Assembly (NCBI GenBank): GCA_009781005.1
Contig: WQYX01000001.1
Span: 1 to 64,000 of the forward strand
Origin: Polyangiaceae bacterium
Lineage (GTDB): Bacteria; Myxococcota_A; Polyangia; Polyangiales; Polyangiaceae
Reading direction: 5' to 3'
Length of the DNA: 64,000 nucleotides
This document shows positions 24,822 to 64,000 of this stretch, one piece after another (the stretch's first letter is position 1; each line of letters opens with the position of its first letter). Below the pieces are notes generated by a model, which saw nothing but the letters and a program-made list of their open reading frames with translations, was not told the DNA's origin and did not search any database. The position numbers and the translations under genes were made by a program.

Positions 24822-27116
24822 GTGGTCGACCCTTCGCAGACCGAGATCGCCATCGAGGGCGAGGTCGAGCGCATTACCTTCGAGAATCGCGATTCGGGTT
24901 TTCGCGTCGTCAAAGTCATCGTCGAAGGTCGCCGCGGTCCGCTCACGATCGTCGGTGTCTTTCCCCAAGTCGCGGTCGGTGCGCGCGTGCGCGCTCGAGG
25001 AATCGTCGAGGTGGATCGTCAGCACGGCGAGCAGCTCCGCGTCAGCAGCATGACCGAACTCGTGCCGACCACGCTCACGGGCATCGAGAAATACCTTGGC
25101 TCAGGCCTCGTCAAAGGGATCGGCGGGCGCACCGCGCAGCGCATCGTCGAGCACTTTGGTCTCGAGACGTTGAAGGTTCTCGACGAACAGCCTCATCGTT
25201 TGGATGAAGTCCACGGGCTCGGGCGCACGCGCATCGAATCGCTTCGCACCGCGTGGCGAGAGCAGCGTGCGATTCGCGACGTGATGGTGTTTCTACAGGC
25301 GCACGGCGCAAGCCCGCAGCTCGCGACGCGCATCTTCAAACGCTACGGGCCGAAGGCCGTGAGCATTGTCTCGCATGATCCCTATCGTCTCGCGATGGAT
25401 GTGTGGGGCATCGGTTTTCGCACGGCCGATCGGATCGCCGCGTCCATGGGGATTGCGAACGATTCGATGGTCCGAATGCAGGCGGCGCTCCTGCAAGCGC
25501 TCCGCGACGCGACCGAAATCAGTGGTCATTGCTACGTCGTCGCGGGCGATCTCACCTTTCGCGCGGCGAAATTGCTTCTGCCTGAAGCCTCCGAGCTGCA
25601 CGCGGAGATCACCGAGCAACTCGATCGCGCGCTCGCGTCGCTCGTCCGAGGCGGCTACGTCGTCGCGGAGCGAGCCGGCGAGCTCACACGCGCGGATGCG
25701 GACGCGCTCTGCCGAGCGGCCATCTACGACCCGCGGATGCACGCGACCGAAACTCGTCTCGCAAGACGCTTTGCAGAACTCGCTTGCGCCAACACCGCAT
25801 GCTTGCCCGGAGTTGCGCAGGCGATCGCCGAGTTCGAAAAAGATTCAGGCACCGTGCTTGCCGAGGAGCAACGTCACGCGGTCGACGAGGCTGCACGCCG
25901 TCCGCTGCTCGTCATCACGGGTGGCCCTGGCGTCGGCAAGACGACGATCGTCAAAGCCGTTCTCAGTGTGTTCGATCGCGCGAGGATCTCGACGCGTCTC
26001 GCTGCGCCCACGGGCCGTGCTGCGAAGCGCATGAGCGACGCGACCGGGCGCGACGCCGCTACCTTGCATCGGTTGCTCGAATTCGATCCGAAAACGAGTT
26101 CGTTCAAGCGCGATGCGAGAAAGCCCGTCGACGCAGGCGCCATCGTCGTCGACGAGAGTTCGATGGTCGACGTCAGAATGGCCGACGCTCTCGCGCAGGC
26201 CGTTGGACCGGGCACGCGGCTCGTGCTCGTCGGTGACGTCGATCAGCTCCCGAGTGTGGGGCCAGGTTCGGTTTTGCGCGACGCGATCGACTCCGGCATC
26301 GTGCCGTGCGTGCGCTTGTTCAAGATCTTCCGGCAGGCCGAGAAAAGCCTCATCGTACGCAATGCGCACCGGATCAACGCTGGTGAGCTGCCCACGGTTG
26401 CCGAGGCAGGCGACGGCAGCGCGGATTTTTTCGTCATCGACAAGCGCGATCCGGACGAGGCGCGCAAAGTGATCCTCGAGCTCGTGACGCGCCGTATTCC
26501 TCGTCGTTTCGGGCTCGATTCCGTGCGCGACGTGCAAGTCCTCACGCCCATGAACCGCGGTCCCGCAGGTACGATGATCTTGAACGAGGAGCTCCAGTCC
26601 GCGCTGAACCCAACGGGTATTTCCATGATGCGCGGTCGTACGGTGTTTCGTATTGGAGATAAGGTCATGCAACTCCGAAACGACTACGACCGCAACGTGT
26701 GGAATGGAGACGTCGGCGTCGTATCCTCGATTTCTGAGGGAGACGAGTCGCTCGTCGTCCGTTTCGAGGATGGTTCGAGTGCAGCGGGTGGATCCCGCGA
26801 CGTGGTTTACGATGGCGGCGCACTCGACGAGCTCTCGCTCGCCTACGCAACGACGATTCACAAATCCCAAGGAAGCGAATACCCAGCGGTCGTCATTGCA
26901 CTCCTGACATCGCACTTCGTGATGTTGAATAAGAATCTCGTCTACACGGCCGTCACCCGCGGCAAGCGCCTCGTCGTCCTCGTCGCCGATGCGCGCGCTC
27001 TCGGGCTCGCGCTCCTGCCGCGCGACGTGGACTCGAGCAGCCGTCATGAACGGCGCATGACGAAGCTCAGCGAAAGGCTTCGCGCGGTCGCTTGCGAGTG
27101 CATCACGGGCGAGTAG
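24822..27116 (+). CDS. recD2: RecD2-type ATP-dependent DNA helicase
   Basis: A 764-residue 5'-3' superfamily 1B helicase of the RecBC-independent RecD2 type. The N-terminal OB-like domain (EGEVERITFENRDSGF) and helix-hairpin-helix repeats (GSGLVKGIGGRTAQRIV) are characteristic. Walker A GGPGVGKTT is at about residue 367, motif II DESSM at about 444, motif III GDVDQLPSVG, and the C-terminal SYAT-like motif is YATTIHKSQGSEYP. It acts in DNA repair. GTG 24822 gives a full-length product. Confidence 0.95.
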   Translation: MVDPSQTEIAIEGEVERITFENRDSGFRVVKVIVEGRRGPLTIVGVFPQVAVGARVRARGIVEVDRQHGEQLRVSSMTELVPTTLTGIEKYLGSGLVKGIGGRTAQRIVEHFGLETLKVLDEQPHRLDEVHGLGRTRIESLRTAWREQRAIRDVMVFLQAHGASPQLATRIFKRYGPKAVSIVSHDPYRLAMDVWGIGFRTADRIAASMGIANDSMVRMQAALLQALRDATEISGHCYVVAGDLTFRAAKLLLPEASELHAEITEQLDRALASLVRGGYVVAERAGELTRADADALCRAAIYDPRMHATETRLARRFAELACANTACLPGVAQAIAEFEKDSGTVLAEEQRHAVDEAARRPLLVITGGPGVGKTTIVKAVLSVFDRARISTRLAAPTGRAAKRMSDATGRDAATLHRLLEFDPKTSSFKRDARKPVDAGAIVVDESSMVDVRMADALAQAVGPGTRLVLVGDVDQLPSVGPGSVLRDAIDSGIVPCVRLFKIFRQAEKSLIVRNAHRINAGELPTVAEAGDGSADFFVIDKRDPDEARKVILELVTRRIPRRFGLDSVRDVQVLTPMNRGPAGTMILNEELQSALNPTGISMMRGRTVFRIGDKVMQLRNDYDRNVWNGDVGVVSSISEGDESLVVRFEDGSSAAGGSRDVVYDGGALDELSLAYATTIHKSQGSEYPAVVIALLTSHFVMLNKNLVYTAVTRGKRLVVLVADARALGLALLPRDVDSSSRHERRMTKLSERLRAVACECITGE

Positions 27117-27131
27117 ACTCAAAGACGAAGA

Positions 27132-27653
27132 ATGCTCAAGCGTCTCCTCGTCGGCGTCGTGATCGGACTCGTCATCGGCGGCGTCGTGGCTGCCGCCCTC
27201 GTGGAGGGACTCGGGATGCCGTTTTTCGCGAGTCCGCTGATCGCCTATGTCGCTGCGGCCGTGACTGGAGTGCTTACCGGACTCGTCGCCGGCAAGCCGA
27301 TCTGGTCATCGGACGGGGCTGTGGAAGCCGGGCTCAAAGCTTTCTTTGGCACATTGCTCGCGCTTTTCGGCATGTTCGCGCTGCGCCAATGGACGCATAT
27401 CACGGTCGATCTCAGCGCGCTCAAAGCAGGTACCGGTCAGCTCGGCGACTTGCCCGCAACCTCATTACCTTTGATCGCAGTCGTACTCGCGGGCTTTTTC
27501 GAAGCCGACAACACGCCCGCATCGGACAATGGCAAAAGGGGTGCGAGCGCAAGTGCCATGAAGCGCCTCGGCAGCAAAATGCGCGTGGCTGACGAAAACG
27601 CAGACGACGAGGACGAAGTGGAGTCCGCGCAGAAAAAAGGGAAAACTCGTTAG
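27132..27653 (+). CDS. Small membrane protein, unknown function
   Basis: A 173-residue protein with three or four hydrophobic helices (residues about 4-26, 35-52, 70-85, 105-123) and a charged cytoplasmic tail rich in Asp, Glu and Lys. No family recognised. It begins 15 bases after recD2. Its TAG stop overlaps the left terminus of a shortened family A element. Confidence 0.75.
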   Translation: MLKRLLVGVVIGLVIGGVVAAALVEGLGMPFFASPLIAYVAAAVTGVLTGLVAGKPIWSSDGAVEAGLKAFFGTLLALFGMFALRQWTHITVDLSALKAGTGQLGDLPATSLPLIAVVLAGFFEADNTPASDNGKRGASASAMKRLGSKMRVADENADDEDEVESAQKKGKTR

Positions 27654-27707
27654 ACCGTTTTCAAGTTGACGCCCCGCCGATGAGATCGCGTCAAATCGAA
27701 AGCGGTC
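27653..27707. repeat. Family A element, 55-bp miniature copy
   Basis: Both termini (GACCGTTTTCAAGTTGACGC and the inverse ending CAAATCGAAAGCGGTC) are present, with only about 15 bases between them. It separates the membrane protein from the convergent methylase gene. It overlaps the stop codons of both: TAG at 27651-27653 and, on the minus strand, TGA at 27691-27693. Confidence 0.85.
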
Positions 27708-30700
27708 CCTTGCGCTGATGCCAATGGTTGACGGCGGCTCGCTCCTCTTCGGACAAGCCGTACATCGCGGCCACGAGCTCGTCGAGCTCCTTTCGACTCC
27801 TCTGGCCGTGTGTCATGGAGAATTGTTTGCCAATGTCACAAAGGCGGGAGCCCCAGATTCCAAGCCCTTCTCGTGGGATGGGAATCGAGCGAAGATGGCT
27901 GATCTTGACCTGCGGCATGATGGGTTGCCGAGCGTCGCGGAAGCGCTGATAGTGAAGCCATCGAATCAGCGCAGAATTTAGGAGAGCCACCGTTGCGGGG
28001 GCAGGCCAGTCATGAAGCTCGAATGCGGCGAGCAGTGAATTTCGGAAAGCCAGCCCGTCGGACAGTGCTGCAATTGGATATCGAGCGGTCTGACGCACGA
28101 CCACGCGAACGTTCGCGAACTCTTCGACGGAACGGATTCGATTCCCGAGAGCCGCGCGATCGACATGAATTCGTGGCGGCAGAAGCTCGAACTCACGGAC
28201 GTCGGTGCCCTCACGAATGGGTGTCGTATAATTCGCAGTCTTTTCTCGTGATTCGATAAAATAATCCGTCCATGTCTTGTCGGATTGAATGCCGCGATCA
28301 CCGAACAGCTCCGGCGGGACCGTGGGCAGAGAAAGAAGGCGCCGGAGAAGGCTGCGATCCACGGGGGTCAGTTCCGGACGCGCCACGGGCCATGGTTCGC
28401 CAGGTTCGGCGTCGCGCCGGCCTCCCTCCGAACGCCGCGAGACGAGCGCCATGCAGGGTTGAGTGACCCCTTCGAAACAACCTTCGCCGAAATCCGTTAG
28501 CTCCCCGGTAAACTCGCAGAGACGATCGTGAGCGGCACGGGTCTTCGCGTAGCCGTCGAGTTCCGCGAGGGACGATGGAAGGACGAAGCATAGGGTTCCG
28601 CCAGATCTCAAGACTCTCGGGATCACGCTCGCAAAAAGACCATGCGTTGTCCGATAGTCGGCAAAGGCCTCGTAGTTGGCATTGTAGAATCGCCTGACAC
28701 CCTTCGGGAGGGGCTGCGCCGCGCGTCCGGCATGCGCAATCCACGGCGGATTGCCAATCACCACGTCGAAACCGCCCCTCGCGAAAACCTGTGGAAACTG
28801 CAAGTGCCAGTGGAAGAAGGCATGACGCTGGGCGAGCTCGGTCACCGTTTTCAACATGAGCGCGGACGGTTCTCCCAGGCGATCGCGGAGCTGTCGCCAT
28901 GCCTCGTTGGTCGGCGCGGCGTCCGAAAGATGGCCCGGTACTTTTGGCCAGAAGAATGCCGCGCACCATGCGTCGGCAACGATCTTCTGATGACGATATT
29001 CAGGCGAACGGAGGATTCTGTCCCAACCCTCTTCCTTTTTCGCGAGTGCGGAGGCGTTCGTATCACTCTCCTCATCGAGGTCCGACATGGCTCGTGTGAC
29101 GGTTTGCGCCTCTCCCGCCGCCTCCGCGGTGACCTGCTCTTCGACCGCGTAAATCCTATTTCGCTTCTTCAGCGTACGCGCAACGCTCTTGTCCTCGCCC
29201 TCCATGGCATCCCACGCCATGTCCGGAATGCCCTTCGCCATCCGCTCCGGTGTGGCACCGAGGAGCGCGTTCCCGTGTTGAATATGCGAATCGAGAAATG
29301 TGAGTGGCAGTCCCTCCTCCACGGCCTCCATCCACAGACCGACTTTGCACAGCTCGATGGCCATGGGGTTTGAGTCGATACCGAAGATGCACCGCGCAAA
29401 AACCTGGCGTAAGGCGTGTCGGTATTCGGCATTCGACGGTGTACCATTCGCTTGGAGGTGCGCCACGTGCGCGGCGAGCCTGCGTGCGGTCGCGAGAAGA
29501 AAGTGTCCCGACCCACATGCCGGATCGACGATTGCCAAACGAAGCAATGCTTCCACTGCGTTGTCCGGGTGGTTCGCAATGGTATCGGAAATCATGGGTT
29601 CGAGTGCGCTGTCGAGCAGCACTCGCACGAGGCTCTCGGGGGTGTAGTAGCTGCCCGTGGCCCTGCGTGCATTGCCTTGCGGTTCGCCAACTGCGAAGTT
29701 GAACTGGCGCCCATCTTTTACAACTTGAGGGACGAGTTCGAGGAGGCTTTCGTAGACACTACCGAGCTCCTCGGGCCCCATATCGCGCCAGTTCACGCGC
29801 GAAAGGTTGTCTCCTTCGCGCAGCCACGCGAGCTTGAATACAGCTTCGAGCAGCGCGCGGTTGTCGAGTTTGCTGGCATCGAGCGCTGCACATTGTGTTG
29901 CAGCGAAGATTCCTGCAAGCGCGGGCAGGCCGAGGCGCGGCTCGCCGTCAGCGAGACCGCGGCATACGATTTTGGTGGCTTCCCAGAGATCAGAGAAACA
30001 GTCATGAATACCGCGTTTCACCGAGCGCTCGCGAAGGCGCCGGAGTCCGTAGCCGCGTGCATAGAGTGATTTCACCGCGTCGCTCGTTCCGCTTGGATGG
30101 AGGAGGGTGCGCTCTTCGACCGTGAGTACGAAGATGAGCCTGTAGACGAGCCGCAAAAGTTGATTGAAATACTCTTTCGTCGACAGCGAGCCGCTCTGAA
30201 GAAGGGCTCGCAGCGCGGTGTTGCCGGCATGCGCGAGAAATCCTTGGCCGAGCGCAACGAGCGCGTCTTCGACACCACGTCGCAAGTGCACGCGTGCACG
30301 CGTGCCTTGTTCGCGACCTCTGGTGCGCCACGCCTCGAGCGCGCATTCGGTGACGGGCTCTCCTTCGCGACCGAAGCGTGTCTCGTGGCAGAGAAGCCAG
30401 AGCACGGCGAAGTCGGCGTAGCGTTCCTCGGTGAAAATGCGCTGAAGGTCCGCTGCAATCCACGCGGGACGCGTGAGGCTCGCGTTGTCGCGCACGATGC
30501 GGAGCACGGAGCCGTTGCTGACGATGCCCCAGAGCGCCTCCTCTTTTGCATTCAGATATTCTTGGGCGAGGCCGAAGGCGTTGCGTCGACGGCTGCCGTC
30601 GCCGAACGAAGGCGAGAGCGCGTCGAGATCGCGGTCGGCCGGCGAAATGACGACGGGTACGCGACCGTCGAGTGCGGCGTGACCGATCGGATACGTGCGT

Positions 30701-31044
30701 TCTCGGAGGATCGCCGGCTCGACTGGGGCGAGCGTCGTAAAGCCGAACGAATCGCGAAGAAATGCGAGCACGAAACGCTCGGAGACGGCCCGCGGGTCCG
30801 TCGTTTTTGCGTTGCGCGCGGATATGAAATCAGCCCAGTGTGCCTGTGCGATGCGCCAGCAGCGGCCAATCTCATCGCGCAGGTGGAGTCCCTTTTGGAT
30901 CCGGTAATCTGCTTCGGTTTGTATTCCAGCCTGAAGTTGAGCGACCGTTGAAAGCCATTCGGGCGACAGCAAGCTGCCTTCGATGCAGAGCGCTTCGAAA
31001 GCAAGTTGGGCCTTGTGCCCTTTCGTCTTTCGGGGACCCGCCAT
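27691..31044 (-). CDS. Adenine-specific DNA methylase, Eco57I/DrmMI-like
   Basis: A 1117-residue N6-adenine methyltransferase. SAM-binding motif I is VDPACGSGHF at about residue 506, and the catalytic motif IV is GNPPWI at about residue 762. Large N-terminal (about 430) and C-terminal regions probably recognise DNA. Size and layout match Eco57I-type methylases and the DrmMI methylase of class 1 DISARM. No separate restriction-nuclease motif is evident. ATG 31044 lies two bases after the helicase stop; a TTG six bases earlier is possible. The last residues GPLSI and stop are encoded by a family A terminus. It probably marks self DNA for the cassette. Confidence 0.9.
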   Translation of the reverse strand: MAGPRKTKGHKAQLAFEALCIEGSLLSPEWLSTVAQLQAGIQTEADYRIQKGLHLRDEIGRCWRIAQAHWADFISARNAKTTDPRAVSERFVLAFLRDSFGFTTLAPVEPAILRERTYPIGHAALDGRVPVVISPADRDLDALSPSFGDGSRRRNAFGLAQEYLNAKEEALWGIVSNGSVLRIVRDNASLTRPAWIAADLQRIFTEERYADFAVLWLLCHETRFGREGEPVTECALEAWRTRGREQGTRARVHLRRGVEDALVALGQGFLAHAGNTALRALLQSGSLSTKEYFNQLLRLVYRLIFVLTVEERTLLHPSGTSDAVKSLYARGYGLRRLRERSVKRGIHDCFSDLWEATKIVCRGLADGEPRLGLPALAGIFAATQCAALDASKLDNRALLEAVFKLAWLREGDNLSRVNWRDMGPEELGSVYESLLELVPQVVKDGRQFNFAVGEPQGNARRATGSYYTPESLVRVLLDSALEPMISDTIANHPDNAVEALLRLAIVDPACGSGHFLLATARRLAAHVAHLQANGTPSNAEYRHALRQVFARCIFGIDSNPMAIELCKVGLWMEAVEEGLPLTFLDSHIQHGNALLGATPERMAKGIPDMAWDAMEGEDKSVARTLKKRNRIYAVEEQVTAEAAGEAQTVTRAMSDLDEESDTNASALAKKEEGWDRILRSPEYRHQKIVADAWCAAFFWPKVPGHLSDAAPTNEAWRQLRDRLGEPSALMLKTVTELAQRHAFFHWHLQFPQVFARGGFDVVIGNPPWIAHAGRAAQPLPKGVRRFYNANYEAFADYRTTHGLFASVIPRVLRSGGTLCFVLPSSLAELDGYAKTRAAHDRLCEFTGELTDFGEGCFEGVTQPCMALVSRRSEGGRRDAEPGEPWPVARPELTPVDRSLLRRLLSLPTVPPELFGDRGIQSDKTWTDYFIESREKTANYTTPIREGTDVREFELLPPRIHVDRAALGNRIRSVEEFANVRVVVRQTARYPIAALSDGLAFRNSLLAAFELHDWPAPATVALLNSALIRWLHYQRFRDARQPIMPQVKISHLRSIPIPREGLGIWGSRLCDIGKQFSMTHGQRSRKELDELVAAMYGLSEEERAAVNHWHQRKGPLSI

Positions 31045-31046
31045 GT

Positions 31047-33893
31047 TCAATCGCCGGGCGGCACTCGTTTCGGTAGCAAAACGAAAAGACCGATAATGTC
31101 CGCCGGAAGAAATGCCTTCACGCTATAGCGGCCGAGCGCTTCGGAGGCTTCGCGAACGCGGCGGTGATCGGCGAGGAGTATTTGCGCACGCCGCTCGGCG
31201 AAAGCGGAGAAATCCGACATGCGAGCGTCGAGCTGGCCAAGTGCCTGGGCAATCTCACGCTCGCACACGTAGGGCGGCGGATCGGAGACGGGACTTGGAG
31301 AGAGAAGCGCGAGAGCATCCGGCCCTTCGATTGCGCTCGACTCCTCTGTCCACGCGATGGCCGTTGCTTCCTCGACGAGGAGCGTCGTGGCACGGCGTGC
31401 GCGCTGCGACGTGAGCTGGTGGCGGAGCCGCACCAGAGCCACGAGCGTGCGCGACGTATTTTTTTCGCCTACCCAGCAACCTACGCGCCCGACGACGCCC
31501 GCGTCTTTCATGTCGGCGTTCGCAACACCAGCAAGCGTGCGCTCGAGCAACGTTTCAGCCAGCACGGAGACGAGGGGGTGACTGCGTTGCACGGCATGGC
31601 AGCGAGGTGCAGGCGGATAATCGAAGTCGATGAGCAACGTGCCCTCTAGCCCTTCTGCCTCGAGCCGTTCGCGCACATCTTCCGCAAGCGCGGCGAGCGG
31701 CATTTTGAAGCCACGACCGGAGTTGCTCAAGGGTGAAAGCGCACCGCCGAGGCGCGCCAATGCGCGGCACGTGAAGCGCTCGACGTCCTCTCTGCTGCCC
31801 AGTGCGGCGAGGGACTTTCTCCATTCAGGCAACACGTCTTCGGGTTTGAGGCGGCGCTGCGCGAAGATCGTGCGATTCTTCTTTGCTTTCTCGGCCGCAT
31901 CGAGCCACCGCGTCTCGATGGCCTTGGCCTCCTCCATCTCGACGAAAGAAAACGTCCGCTGACGCTCTTCTTCACGCTCTCGTTCGCGAAGCAAGACAGC
32001 CTTCATCAGCGCTTGGCTGAGCGCGTGCCCGTCGTCGGGCAGCGGCACGGGTACGCCGAGCTCCTCGCGGATCTTGTCCGCTTTCTTGATGATCACCTCG
32101 AGTACGGCGCCGTCGACCGGGTTGTTGGCGCCGTAGAGTAGCGTCGCGCGCACGACGGGGCTCTTCTGCCCGAAGCGATCGACGCGTCCTTCGCGCTGTT
32201 CGTGGCGTGTTGGGTTCCATGAGAGATCGTAGTGGACGACCGCATCGAAGTGGTCCTGGAGGTTCACACCCTCCGAGAGGCAGTCCGTCGCCACCAGGAT
32301 GCGTCGCTCGGCATCGCCGAGTCGCTCGACTTTTTCCTTGCGCTCCTCCGAGGCTCGTTCGCCCGTGACGACGTCGACCGTGGCGCCGTTCACGTGCGAA
32401 GCAAGGTGCTGACCGACGTAGCGAGCCGTTGCGATGTAGCGGCAGAAGACGACCGGATTGAATCCCTCGTTCACGAGCTCGGTCACGTGCTCGATCAAGA
32501 TCGAAAGCTTCGGATCATCCGCTTGGCGTGCGAGCTCCTCGGCCTGCTCGAGGAGTAGGGCGAGCTCTGCGCCATCCGAACCTGCGGACGGCTCAACGTC
32601 GTCGTCCGGAAGTGCGTCGTCCGTGCCGTCGAAGACACGCGCCGCGACGTCGTTCTCAGCGGCTTTTTGTTTGCAATCCGAACGCGTGCGCAACGCTTGG
32701 ACAGCGGCTGCAGGACTCGACGCCACGCAGCGCATGAGAGCGAGCGTGCTCCAAAAATCGAGACGCTGCTCCTTCGTGTCTTTATCCGCATCCGCCGCGC
32801 GCGTGACTGTCGCGCAGTAGTCGAGCACGGCGTCGAAGAATCGTTCCCAGCGGCCCGTGAGTCTGTACGTCAGCTCCGTGGTCTCGCGGCGTGGAAAGAG
32901 GTTGCCTTCTTTCCATTCGGCGATGTCCGGGCGCCTTCGTTGGACGAAGTGGGCGGCAAGGCGATCGCGAAGTTTCTTGTGCGAGTCACCCGTAAGGTTG
33001 CAGAGTGCAGCAAAATCCGGATGAAGAAGTCCAAGGAGGCGATAGTACGCTTCCTCGTCACCGCTGTGCGGTGTCGCCGTGAGCATGACGAGGTGGCGCG
33101 CTCTGCCGTGGACCTTCGACTCCTCGCTGACGAGGCCCTTGAGTAGTTCGTAACGCTGGTGGCGACCTTGGCCGGCACCTGCGCACGTGTGCGCTTCGTC
33201 CACGATGACCAGCTCGGGGCACGCGCGCAGAAACTCTGCGCGACGTCGCTCGCTCTTGATGAAGTCGAGACTCGTGACCGTGTGCGCGTGCGCCGTGAAG
33301 ATGCTTTCACTAGGTGGCAAGTTGCGCTCGAGGCGCGCAGCGCTCGTGGCGGTCACCGCAACGGGCCGCAAGTGGAATCGACCTCCGAGCTCGGTGACCC
33401 ACTGATCCACGAGGTGCGGCGGACAGAGCACCGTAAAGCGCTCGACGTCACCGCGATCGAGGAGCTCGCGAACGATGAGCGCCGCTTCGATCGTCTTGCC
33501 GACGCCGACGTCGTCCGCGATGAGCAGCCGCACCGGATCGAGCTTCAATGCCATGAGCAGCGGCACGAGCTGGTAGGCGCGCGGCTCGATGGCGATCTCA
33601 CCGAAGCTGCGGAAGGGACCTGCGCCGCGGCGAAGGGAGAGCACGAGTGCATCGCGCAGGAGCAGGGCTGCATCGTGCCCGGCCTTCTGCGTGGGATCAA
33701 GCAACGAAAAAGTTGCATCTTCGACCGGGGTGGATTCGAGCGCGAGATGGATGAAGGTCTGATCTTCTTCGGAGCCCAGCACTGGACGAACCCGAAGCAC
33801 CTCCGCGTCGCTGCCGGCGAGCACAATCCACTCGCGATCGCGAGCGCGCACCAGGCTGCCGGGACTCCACCGCGTACCCGGGGGCGTCGACAT
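31047..33893 (-). CDS. SNF2-like DEAH helicase, DrmD-like
   Basis: A 948-residue superfamily 2 ATPase. Walker A is DDVGVGKTIEA at about residue 128, motif II DEAH at about 229, motif III TATPHSG, and motif VI QREGRVDRFGQ. The C-terminal half contains helicase-associated regions (FDYPPAPRCHAV) but no nuclease motif that I can see. The combination with an Eco57I-type methylase resembles DrmD-DrmMI of class 1 DISARM phage defence. It is directly followed by the methylase and preceded by Fic with a 63-base gap, suggesting one transcript. Confidence 0.9.
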   Translation of the reverse strand: MSTPPGTRWSPGSLVRARDREWIVLAGSDAEVLRVRPVLGSEEDQTFIHLALESTPVEDATFSLLDPTQKAGHDAALLLRDALVLSLRRGAGPFRSFGEIAIEPRAYQLVPLLMALKLDPVRLLIADDVGVGKTIEAALIVRELLDRGDVERFTVLCPPHLVDQWVTELGGRFHLRPVAVTATSAARLERNLPPSESIFTAHAHTVTSLDFIKSERRRAEFLRACPELVIVDEAHTCAGAGQGRHQRYELLKGLVSEESKVHGRARHLVMLTATPHSGDEEAYYRLLGLLHPDFAALCNLTGDSHKKLRDRLAAHFVQRRRPDIAEWKEGNLFPRRETTELTYRLTGRWERFFDAVLDYCATVTRAADADKDTKEQRLDFWSTLALMRCVASSPAAAVQALRTRSDCKQKAAENDVAARVFDGTDDALPDDDVEPSAGSDGAELALLLEQAEELARQADDPKLSILIEHVTELVNEGFNPVVFCRYIATARYVGQHLASHVNGATVDVVTGERASEERKEKVERLGDAERRILVATDCLSEGVNLQDHFDAVVHYDLSWNPTRHEQREGRVDRFGQKSPVVRATLLYGANNPVDGAVLEVIIKKADKIREELGVPVPLPDDGHALSQALMKAVLLREREREEERQRTFSFVEMEEAKAIETRWLDAAEKAKKNRTIFAQRRLKPEDVLPEWRKSLAALGSREDVERFTCRALARLGGALSPLSNSGRGFKMPLAALAEDVRERLEAEGLEGTLLIDFDYPPAPRCHAVQRSHPLVSVLAETLLERTLAGVANADMKDAGVVGRVGCWVGEKNTSRTLVALVRLRHQLTSQRARRATTLLVEEATAIAWTEESSAIEGPDALALLSPSPVSDPPPYVCEREIAQALGQLDARMSDFSAFAERRAQILLADHRRVREASEALGRYSVKAFLPADIIGLFVLLPKRVPPGD

Positions 33894-33956
33894 CGGGACT
33901 GGAGGGTACCCGAGCGCGGGACCGTCGAAAAGGGCGGGAAGGATATGTGGCCTGTC

Positions 33957-35153
33957 TCACGTTCGATTCGTCGCGTCCTCGAGTGCTGCGGCCGGAAGGA
34001 AGGCTTCGATCTGTTCGACCTTTGCTCGATACCGACCGTCCGCCGTTCGGTCGAGAAGCCCTTTCTGCAGAAGTGCATTGACGTCGCGGACCACGGTTCT
34101 CGGGCTTATCTTCGCGTAGGCCTGCGCAACGCGTGCATTGACTCTCGACAACTCGCTCTTTGCGACAGGAGTTGGCTGCTCACTTATCGCGAGCACCAAG
34201 TACCTTTGGCGTTTCCCTGTCGCGCTCTCGTCGTTTTGAAAGAACTCGTGAACAAAGTTCCTCCAGATGATGTCGAATTGCTGATTACGAATCGTGTCAA
34301 TCTGCTCGCGTAGCCCGTCGACGAATCCTTGCACGGCATAATGGATGAACGGAATCACGTCTCCTTTGGATTTGCTCGCAGCGTCGAGCTGACGGTAGTA
34401 CTCATCACGCGTTTCATTATAAAAATTGCTGAGCACGTGTGCTGCTGGCTGGGGCATTCCGGCGTTTGCAAGAATTTCGAACTCGAGCAGCCGAGCCGTG
34501 CGTCCGTTGCCATCCCCAAATGGATGAATCCACGCAATATACAAATGAGCAAGGATGGCTTTTAGAATGGCAAAGACCGGCCTGAGCTCTGAACGACGGT
34601 CGTTTTTTCCGAAGTCAGGGCCGTTGAGCCACTCACACAATTTTTCGAGCAGATACTTGCAGTCTTTTGCTGGAGCACCCCGGTATTGGGCAAGCCCGAC
34701 GGAGTGTTCGCGAATGCTGCCTGGCACAACATCCTCTCCCCGTGGAAGGCCGTGAAGCGCTTTCTCATTGAATTCACAGATTCGGTCCACGGTGATCTCG
34801 TAACGCCCGCGTCGTTCGAGTGCGCGCGACCACACCTCGTTGCATGCATCGAGGATGTTCTGCACCTCCGTGCCGAGATACTCCTTCGAGGGGGGAAGCC
34901 GTAGCGTGCCCTCAATCTGTTTCATCACTTGGTCTTCCGACAGCGTGTTGCCTTCAATCGCGGTGGTCGCACGAACACCGCGCGCCAGATAGAGCTGATT
35001 GAGTTTCGTCGCCGTCGAAGGCCGAAGCGACGACCGTGCGATGTGGCCAAGCTTGGATCTCGCCTCACCGAGCAATAGCCACAAGATTGGCGGCACCTTG
35101 TCCTGGTTGATCCGGTAGGTGATCCATGGATGTGTCCCTTCGTATGTCCTCAT
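33957..35153 (-). CDS. Fic domain protein with winged-helix C-terminus
   Basis: A 398-residue Fic protein. The catalytic motif HPFGDGNGRTAR at residues 208-219 is intact, so AMP (or other nucleotide) transfer to a hydroxyl is expected. The inhibitory motif of class II Fic proteins, TTAIEGN at about residues 62-68, is present and would block activity until released. The C-terminal 100 residues form a winged-helix-like domain (SRVNARVAQAYAKISPRT), fitting DNA binding or autoregulation. AGAGGA lies five bases before the ATG. Base composition is visibly more AT-rich than its neighbours, suggesting horizontal arrival. It is the first gene of the cassette. Confidence 0.92.
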   Translation of the reverse strand: MRTYEGTHPWITYRINQDKVPPILWLLLGEARSKLGHIARSSLRPSTATKLNQLYLARGVRATTAIEGNTLSEDQVMKQIEGTLRLPPSKEYLGTEVQNILDACNEVWSRALERRGRYEITVDRICEFNEKALHGLPRGEDVVPGSIREHSVGLAQYRGAPAKDCKYLLEKLCEWLNGPDFGKNDRRSELRPVFAILKAILAHLYIAWIHPFGDGNGRTARLLEFEILANAGMPQPAAHVLSNFYNETRDEYYRQLDAASKSKGDVIPFIHYAVQGFVDGLREQIDTIRNQQFDIIWRNFVHEFFQNDESATGKRQRYLVLAISEQPTPVAKSELSRVNARVAQAYAKISPRTVVRDVNALLQKGLLDRTADGRYRAKVEQIEAFLPAAALEDATNRT

Positions 35154-35192: not shown

Positions 35193-35323
35193 ACGTGCAA
35201 TTATGCCGCTTTCAGGCCATCAATGACCGGAGATTTGACCATCCTCGTGATCGCAAGATTGGCGCTGCGTAGTCCCTGGTCCGTTGCTTGAAGTGCCTTC
35301 CTATCCCGGCTAACCACGGCGTC

Positions 35324-36160
35324 ATGCAAGCCGCTCGCGACGTTCTTCGCATTGGTCCCCGTACGTTCTCGAGCCGCCTCATCGTCGGCACGGGCAAGTA
35401 CAAAAGCGTCGAAGAGACCGAGATGGCCGTGGACGCCGCAGGAGCCGAAATCGTCACGGTAGCTCTGCGCCGCGTCGACCTCGCGGACAAATCGAGCGGC
35501 TCGCTCATGAGCATGCTCACCCGGCGCGCTCACGTTGGAGAGGCTCGCAAGGGAGATCTCGACTCCGCCGCGGGCACGGTCAAATGGACGATCTTGCCGA
35601 ACACGGCGGGGTGCTTCACGGCGGACGAGGCCGTGCGCACGCTGCGTCTTGCACGCGAGCTTGGCGTCGCGGAGCTCGTCAAGCTCGAAGTCATTGGCGA
35701 TCCGAAGACGCTCTATCCGGACAACGAGCAGACGCTCGAGGCTGCGAAGATCCTCGTCAAGGAAGGCTTCACGGTTTTGCCTTATTGCATCGACGATCCC
35801 ATCGTATGCCGCAAACTCGAAGACATGGGGTGCGCCGCGGTCATGCCGCTTGCCGCGCCGATCGGCAGCGGCCTCGGCATCCGCAATCCGCACAACCTCT
35901 CCATCATTCTCGAACACGCGAAAGTGCCTGTCATCGTCGATGCCGGAGTTGGCACCGCAAGCGATGTGGCGGTCGCGATGGAGCTCGGGTGCGACGGTGT
36001 TCTCGTCAACACCGCGATTGCTCATGCCAAAGATCCCGTCTTGATGGCGCACGCGATGTGTGAAGGCGTATCGGCCGGACGAAAGGCGCATCTTGCCGGC
36101 CGCATGCCGCGAACACGATATGCCAACGCGTCGAGTCCCTTGGCGGGCCTCATCGAATGA
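35324..36160 (+). CDS. thiG: Thiazole synthase
   Basis: A 278-residue ThiG. It forms the thiazole phosphate of thiamine from deoxyxylulose phosphate, dehydroglycine and ThiS thiocarboxylate. The family landmarks are [12 protein letters not shown], the Schiff-base lysine in [15 protein letters not shown], the [15 protein letters not shown] loop and the phosphate-binding [21 protein letters not shown] 35324 gives about the family length; TTG at 35288 is the only upstream option and has no ribosome site. No TPP riboswitch was recognised in the 160 bases upstream, and ThiS is not in the window. The stop overlaps the next gene. Confidence 0.95.
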
Positions 36161-62916: not shown

Positions 62917-63582
62917 ATGCGTCGCACCGAACGCCTCTTTGCCCTCGCCGAAGTTCTTCGCGGGCGCCGTACGGGCATCACGGCAGAAGCTCTCGCCGAG
63001 CGCTTCGGCGTCACGGTGCGGACGATCTACCGCGATCTCGACGCACTCCGTGACGCCCACATGCCGCTCGCGGCCGAGCGCGGTCGCGGCGGAGGCTACG
63101 CACTCGATAAGAGCTATAGCCTGCCCCCCGTTAATTTCACCGCGCGCGAAGCAGCCGTGCTCGTCGCGCTCGGGCGCCACGCCGTCGACATGCGCCTCGT
63201 GCCCTTCGAGGAAACGCTCGAGAGCGCGCTCGACAAGGTGCGTGCTGCACTGTCGACGTCCGCGCAACGTGAGCTCGTCGATCGCCTGAAGGAGCTGAAG
63301 TTTTTCGGCATCCCCCAACACCCGAGCAAGAAGGCCGTGCGTGCCGCGCTCGAGCGCGCATGGTTCGAGCAGCAGCCGCTTCGCATCACCTACGTCGACA
63401 GCCAGTCGATCCAAACGACGCGCGACATCCGCATCGAGTCCGTCGTCATGGATCGCCATGACACACGCGTTCATGCGCTCGATCTCGGACGAGGAGATCG
63501 GCGCACCTTCCGGCTCGACCGCATTGCGAAAGCCGTGGTCATTACTCAGTCCTTCGTGTCCTCGGTCAACGCAGCAACGTAG
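62917..63582 (+). CDS. HTH-WYL transcriptional regulator (YafY-like)
   Basis: A 221-residue regulator. The N-terminal winged helix (ALAERFGVTVRTIYRDLDAL) is of the DeoR/HTH_11 type, and the C-terminal part resembles a WYL ligand-binding domain. The domain appears slightly short. It lies 59 bases from the divergent glutathione transferase, a common regulator-target layout. Its last 37 bases overlap the 3' end of the convergent Fic gene. Confidence 0.88.
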   Translation: MRRTERLFALAEVLRGRRTGITAEALAERFGVTVRTIYRDLDALRDAHMPLAAERGRGGGYALDKSYSLPPVNFTAREAAVLVALGRHAVDMRLVPFEETLESALDKVRAALSTSAQRELVDRLKELKFFGIPQHPSKKAVRAALERAWFEQQPLRITYVDSQSIQTTRDIRIESVVMDRHDTRVHALDLGRGDRRTFRLDRIAKAVVITQSFVSSVNAAT

Positions 63583-64000
63583 GGTTTGTATAGGAATTGG
63601 CGATCGCGCAACTTTCCGGTTGCTTCCGTCAGAATGCCGAGCCCCATCAAACGTTTGACGGCATCTGCAACGGTCGGGTGTGCAAGCTGCAACTGCTTCG
63701 CCGCCGAAGGAATCGAAATCACGGCGTAACGCTTGACGAGTTCATAGAGTTTGAGCGCAGACGCAGACCCTTTCCCGCTGGTCGAGAGCACGCGCTCGCG
63801 ATCGCGTTCGAAGAGTTGCGCAACCGTTCGAGCCGTCTTCGTCGCCTGCACCGAAACGGATGCAACGCCATCAAGATAAAAGTGCATCCACCCCTCCCAG
63901 TCTCCGTGGGTTCGCAAGCGCTGGAGACGATCGTAATACTCTTGGCGGTGAGCCTTGAAATGAAGGCTCACGTAGAGGAGGGGTTGCGCGAGCACCTGCT
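63546..64000 (-). CDS. Fic family protein, C-terminal part (runs off window)
   Basis: The open frame continues past base 64000. The visible 150 or so residues match the region after the Fic core: QPLLYVSLHFKAHRQEYYDR and GDWEGWMHFYLDGV, typical of DUF4172-type Fic proteins, then a winged-helix domain (SIPSAAKQLQLAHPTVADAV). The catalytic motif itself would lie outside the window. It is unrelated in detail to the Fic at 33957-35153. Confidence 0.85.
   Translation of the reverse strand, partial: QVLAQPLLYVSLHFKAHRQEYYDRLQRLRTHGDWEGWMHFYLDGVASVSVQATKTARTVAQLFERDRERVLSTSGKGSASALKLYELVKRYAVISIPSAAKQLQLAHPTVADAVKRLMGLGILTEATGKLRDRQFLYKPYVAALTEDTKD

Follow-up and report, generated by a model that had tools for sequence, protein, structure and literature searches.

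The closest described relative of the locus analysed here is ARMADA Type I, whose gene order is given in Bell et al. 2025 (PMC12458937) as YprA, a BrxHII-like helicase and a PglX-like methylase. The same paper reports that ARMADA and Druantia synergise in E. coli and that loss of any one of the four genes of E. coli ARMADA Type II abolishes defence, although this deletion evidence comes from Type II and the pair considered here appears to be Type I. In intact ARMADA, judging from the family, the methylase presumably marks self, while the helicases, together with a predicted Vsr-type nuclease borne by YprA at its C terminus, would attack unmarked DNA. Among Fic proteins, those of the SoFic group act as anti-phage toxins (PMC12249575). 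We analysed a 64,000-nucleotide stretch of a Polyangiaceae genome (hereafter, the window) in which genes for a Fic protein, a helicase and a methylase follow one another on the minus strand (Table 1). Our analysis suggests that this locus most likely represents a relic rather than a new weapon. In our preferred reading, which we hold to be probable, the helicase and methylase are an orphaned and relaxing ARMADA pair, and the Fic gene is an independently acquired, self-inhibited AMPylase.

The order, spacing and coordinates of the three genes in the original prediction proved to be real. It was also right that Fic has both an intact catalytic motif (HPFGDGNGR, residue 210) and an intact inhibitory motif (the class II TTAIEG, residue 63) and that no drmA, drmB or drmC adjoins the pair, the flanks being recD2, a membrane protein gene and thiG/thiE. 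Pfam domains comprise Fic (1.5e-15) in the first protein, SNF2-rel_dom and Helicase_C in the helicase, and Eco57I, N6_Mtase and TaqI_C in the methylase. All helicase motifs (GVGKT, DEAH, TATP and REGRVDRFGQ) are intact, as are DPACGSG and NPPW in the methylase, whose ATG stands 2 nt past the helicase stop codon. Since the gap between Fic and helicase holds no terminator-like site, it is possible that all three genes are on one transcript. The recD2 and membrane protein genes occur together in all 12 genomes of the genus; thiG does not adjoin them in the other genomes, so that the empty-site comparison does not define the boundaries of an insertion. The immediate surroundings of the locus do not form a defence island.

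Table 1. Features of the locus and its flanks, with coordinates in the window.
Feature	Coordinates	Strand	Description
recD2 helicase	24822..27116	plus	conserved neighbour; flank, outside the system
Membrane protein gene	27132..27653	plus	conserved beside recD2; flank
N6-adenine methyltransferase, PglX/DrmMI-like	27691..31044	minus	1117 aa; ATG start
Methylase residues 1-770			orthologous to the ARMADA Type I methylase
Methylase residues 771-1117			different recognition region
SNF2 helicase, BrxHII/RapA-like	31047..33893	minus	948 aa; ortholog of the ARMADA Type I helicase
Gap between Fic and helicase	33894..33956	minus	63 nt; place of the YprA-like gene in relatives
Fic	33957..35153	minus	398 aa; class II; C-terminal region resembles a winged helix
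thiG	35288..36160	plus	divergent flank; thiE also in flank

Scanning 84,980 species genomes and related whole genomes yielded 85 loci with a close helicase, a few of them fetched from both collections, and HMMs of the core genes were run on their six-frame translations. The methylase is paired with the helicase in 77 of these 85 loci, most of the others being contig ends or broken copies, and the pairing is thus far above chance. Where the sequence allowed a test (84 loci), a YprA-like gene adjoins the pair in 82; the two without it are a locus with a broken helicase (L105) and one with 366 nt of contig (L196). The gene encodes about 1,790 aa (roughly 1,700-1,850) with DEAD, Helicase_C and MZB domains, has DruE as its best PADLOC match and mostly lies directly upstream of the helicase. 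In a few loci, 0.3-1.9 kb separate it from the pair, and in L197 it is downstream and on the opposite strand. L108, a YprA-positive locus, is itself decayed. YprA-positive loci span Myxococcota, Pseudomonadota, Verrucomicrobiota, Acidobacteriota, Gemmatimonadota and Spirochaetota. Plasmid records contain the helicase in 67 cases and the YprA protein in 65, mostly the same records, and plasmid MP1 of Deinococcus radiodurans R1 has the plain order YprA, helicase, methylase; no helicase relatives were found in phage records and viral contigs. Because the layout of the relatives matches the ARMADA Type I order in Bell et al. 2025 (PMC12458937), the sequence comparison assigns the pair to ARMADA Type I and not to DISARM.

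Several features of the related loci deserve mention in their own right. In 47 of the 85 loci (L045-L109, L186-L205), the methylase is followed downstream by an HNH gene (HNH_2, about 262 aa), which the available part of the Bell et al. preprint does not name as a part of ARMADA Type I, and a DUF2326-type ATPase gene is present downstream in 16 of 85. Tandem double methylases occur in L047 (12211-20003) and L186 (12126-19684), as though such loci encoded a second specificity; one methylase of the L047 tandem is short and fast-evolving. In the ARMADA-like operon of the D. radiodurans plasmid (L206, 4863-16359), the methylase is split over two open frames and McrBC is nearby; this species is in common laboratory use.

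The original prediction had described a DISARM-like module without its core, with the helicase as a counterpart of DrmD. These are indeed DISARM-related defence genes whose core partner is gone; however, the missing core is, by comparison with the 82 of 84 loci, the YprA-like ARMADA helicase and not drmABC. A class 1 DISARM with drmABC elsewhere in the genome would accord with the PADLOC matches to DrmD (268 bits) and DrmMI (206 bits), but the helicase has a better full-length match to another PADLOC model, labelled DpdE (602 bits), and scores 301.9 of 610 bits against the NCBIfam DrmD profile, below its cut-off. Moreover, the drmB-type MZB partner is absent: the single DUF1998/MZB match in the whole genome is an 892-aa MrfA-like helicase, which leaves no drmB candidate, and the natural neighbour of this helicase-methylase family is YprA. 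Given the score under the DrmD cut-off and the missing drmB, we rejected class 1 DISARM, including distant drmABC partners, as extremely improbable. Dpd was rejected at 188 of 500 bits in the NCBIfam DpdE comparison. The PADLOC DpdE model seems to have come to include ARMADA helicases, and the PADLOC labels DpdE, DrmD and DrmMI misname ARMADA parts.

No YprA sequence was found in the window, and a remnant of its tail in the gap upstream of the helicase was rejected because alignments there score the same as shuffled sequences. The downstream accessory genes of ARMADA are absent from the locus as well. The sole ARMADA-type YprA piece in the assembly is on a 4.3-kb contig (C167, locus L120). Spanning residues ~583-716, it is internally deleted and frameshifted and is fused to a frameshifted methylase without its first ~410 residues, followed by a DUF2326-type ATPase gene; residues 1-582 and 717-1784 of an ARMADA-type YprA were found nowhere in the assembly. 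In a draft genome of 199 contigs, an ARMADA fragment on a separate short contig might point to an assembly error at the Fic-helicase junction, with an intact YprA in the true locus. We consider such an error very unlikely: the junction is internal to a contig of 137 kb and its flanks are ordinary, most of YprA is missing assembly-wide, and the fragment, being decayed and bearing its own methylase piece, appears to be a second, wrecked ARMADA copy. Loss of YprA seems to have occurred more than once, since YprA-less pairs, without Fic and with insertion sequences adjacent, exist on plasmids of Thermus brockianus and Calothrix.

Another contig of this genome, C127, carries Druantia Type I at locus L121: DruA, DruD and a DruE truncated where the contig ends, with two unnamed genes lying among them. 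The pair might therefore still work in trans with another YprA-family helicase such as this DruE, and PMC12458937 describes the YprA proteins of ARMADA and Druantia as mutually closest kin in addition to the synergy of the two systems. However, DruE and ARMADA YprA are 43-52% identical over short stretches only and fall into different clades, and a working partner would not predict the relaxed constraint on the pair described below. We regard a partnership in trans as quite unlikely.

The original prediction had also noted the absence of a nuclease motif. An E-x-K motif in the methylase N-terminus is absent in all 30 homologues examined. On that account the pair has no visible nuclease, and a self-contained Type IIG enzyme was rejected for the methylase. 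In the structural model, the methylase N-terminus is predicted to have strands and helices in what we read as a PD-(D/E)xK-like order.

Rate tests were performed with the window genes against their nearest sister, Polyangium fumosum (L071), and several outgroups, and since the split the pair has undergone about five times as many amino acid changes as the sister lineage. Across outgroups, lineage-specific changes in the helicase number 70-102 for the window and 17-27 for the sister, and those in the methylase (residues 1-760) 83-112 and 18-28; the relative rates against L071 are 101 v 18 (p=3e-14) and 112 v 21 (p=3e-15), respectively. Nonsynonymous to synonymous changes are 61:131 in the window helicase v 10:92 in the sister (Fisher p=1.5e-5), and 72:120 v 12:56 for the methylase (p=2.5e-3). 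This nonsynonymous excess on the window branch is present in most comparisons and weakest with outgroup L049. The control comparison of L071 with L045 shows no such imbalance of rate or of nonsynonymous to synonymous changes. A genome-wide fast clock was rejected, as recD2 of this genome has equal rates and no excess. The helicase also alters 12 of 319 positions that are otherwise invariant in the clade, whereas its six closest relatives alter 0-3.

Nevertheless, both frames (948 and 1117 codons) remain whole and most of the changes are still synonymous. The constraint on the pair is therefore relaxed without being lost, and some function is probably kept. Residues 1-770 of the methylase share about 67-80% identity with the usual long methylases of close relatives, while the last 347 residues match just one other protein among the loci, namely the first and shorter methylase of the L047 tandem (53%). 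The recognition region has been exchanged. Fast evolution together with a new recognition region could reflect adaptation to a new role; these data do not separate positive selection for such a role from relaxation.

The Fic protein combines an N-terminal [S/T]xxxE[G/N] motif with HPFx(D/E)GN(G/K)R, as expected of class II AMPylases. Its gene has a GC content of 55.5% and a GC3 of 62.7%, compared with 63.8% and 73.7% for the helicase, and is also below the flanks. Running a Fic HMM over the 85 ARMADA loci (1.47 Mb in total) gave 2 matches, one distant (L078) and one weak (L069), against about 2.2 expected from the density in the genome of the window (7 in 4.77 Mb), and thus no enrichment near ARMADA. 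Close Fic relatives (50-55% identity) were found in eight other genomes of 145; they have varied neighbours, with no such helicase or methylase adjoining where the contig permits a view, and in none of the 85 related loci does a Fic gene stand beside the pair in place of YprA. Given the low GC and GC3, the lack of enrichment and these relatives standing alone, the Fic gene looks separately acquired. The proposal that the three genes form a new architecture was not borne out, as the order does not recur and homologues of the pair essentially never co-occur with Fic. The end of the window cuts through a second Fic gene of about 400 aa, located 28 kb away from the first (63549-64000, continuing to C1:64751).

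It is nonetheless conceivable that the three genes act as a new defence system, in which detection of unmethylated DNA by the pair would set the Fic AMPylase free to shut the cell down, substituting for the lost nuclease. The shared strand, the short gap with no terminator and the intact Fic motifs are compatible with this idea, as are the anti-phage activity of the related SoFic proteins (PMC12249575), the accelerated yet in-frame evolution of the pair with its new recognition region, and one further ARMADA locus, in Novosphingobium resinovorum, where a distant Fic gene lies directly upstream of YprA in an intact operon (L078, 388-1494). However, the arrangement was seen only once, Fic is at chance level near ARMADA, the close Fic proteins of the nine genomes that have one are beside the pair in none but this genome, the base composition differs, and an inhibitory helix of its own makes outside restraint of Fic unneeded. 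A Fic-armed system is in our judgement unlikely, and so is its evolutionary counterpart, a pair re-armed with Fic after YprA loss, so that unmethylated DNA would lead to protein AMPylation instead of DNA cutting. If this were so, an effector switch would have left its trace in the rapid evolution of both genes and in the new recognition region, and a real link to Fic would add a new effector type to the DISARM/ARMADA class. A lone suggestive neighbour such as this Fic gene needs a recurrence test.

Returning to the orphaned ARMADA pair with a separate Fic gene, the reading we prefer, the methylase would probably retain adenine methylation at a site of its own, and the helicase would probably remain able to bind and hydrolyse ATP. 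Because the YprA helicase with its predicted Vsr-type nuclease is gone, the pair alone should not restrict phage, and it may be a methylation-only or decaying remnant. The Fic protein would be a self-inhibited AMPylase and a bystander, possibly co-transcribed but not functionally tied to the pair. Intact frames, mostly synonymous changes and the placement of Fic as if in one transcript speak against a relic. The locus may illustrate the disintegration of a multi-gene defence system that has only recently been named, and suggests that the helicase and methylase can persist after the nuclease half is lost, under looser constraint and with altered specificity.

Compared with known systems, the Fic protein resembles the single-gene anti-phage SoFic in being class II and matching the PADLOC SoFic model at 211 bits, but is far under the NCBIfam cut-off (37.8 of 550 bits), and the 63-nt gap is too short for a small downstream antitoxin. 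With Dpd, the locus shares the label of its best PADLOC helicase model, although there are no 7-deazaguanine genes beside the pair and the NCBIfam DpdE match is below cut-off. Class 1 DISARM likewise joins a SNF2-like helicase to an N6-adenine methylase, but the helicase here is below the DrmD cut-off, none of drmA, drmB and drmC adjoins the pair and no drmB was found in the genome. Among solved structures, BrxX/PglX of BREX is the nearest to the fold predicted for the methylase, at 14% identity and with no BREX genes around. From ARMADA Type I, the locus differs in having no YprA-like helicase-nuclease at the locus and none intact in the genome, a shorter methylase with another C-terminal region, and a Fic gene upstream; it shares with ARMADA Type I an orthologous BrxHII/RapA-like helicase with a PglX-like methylase directly after it.
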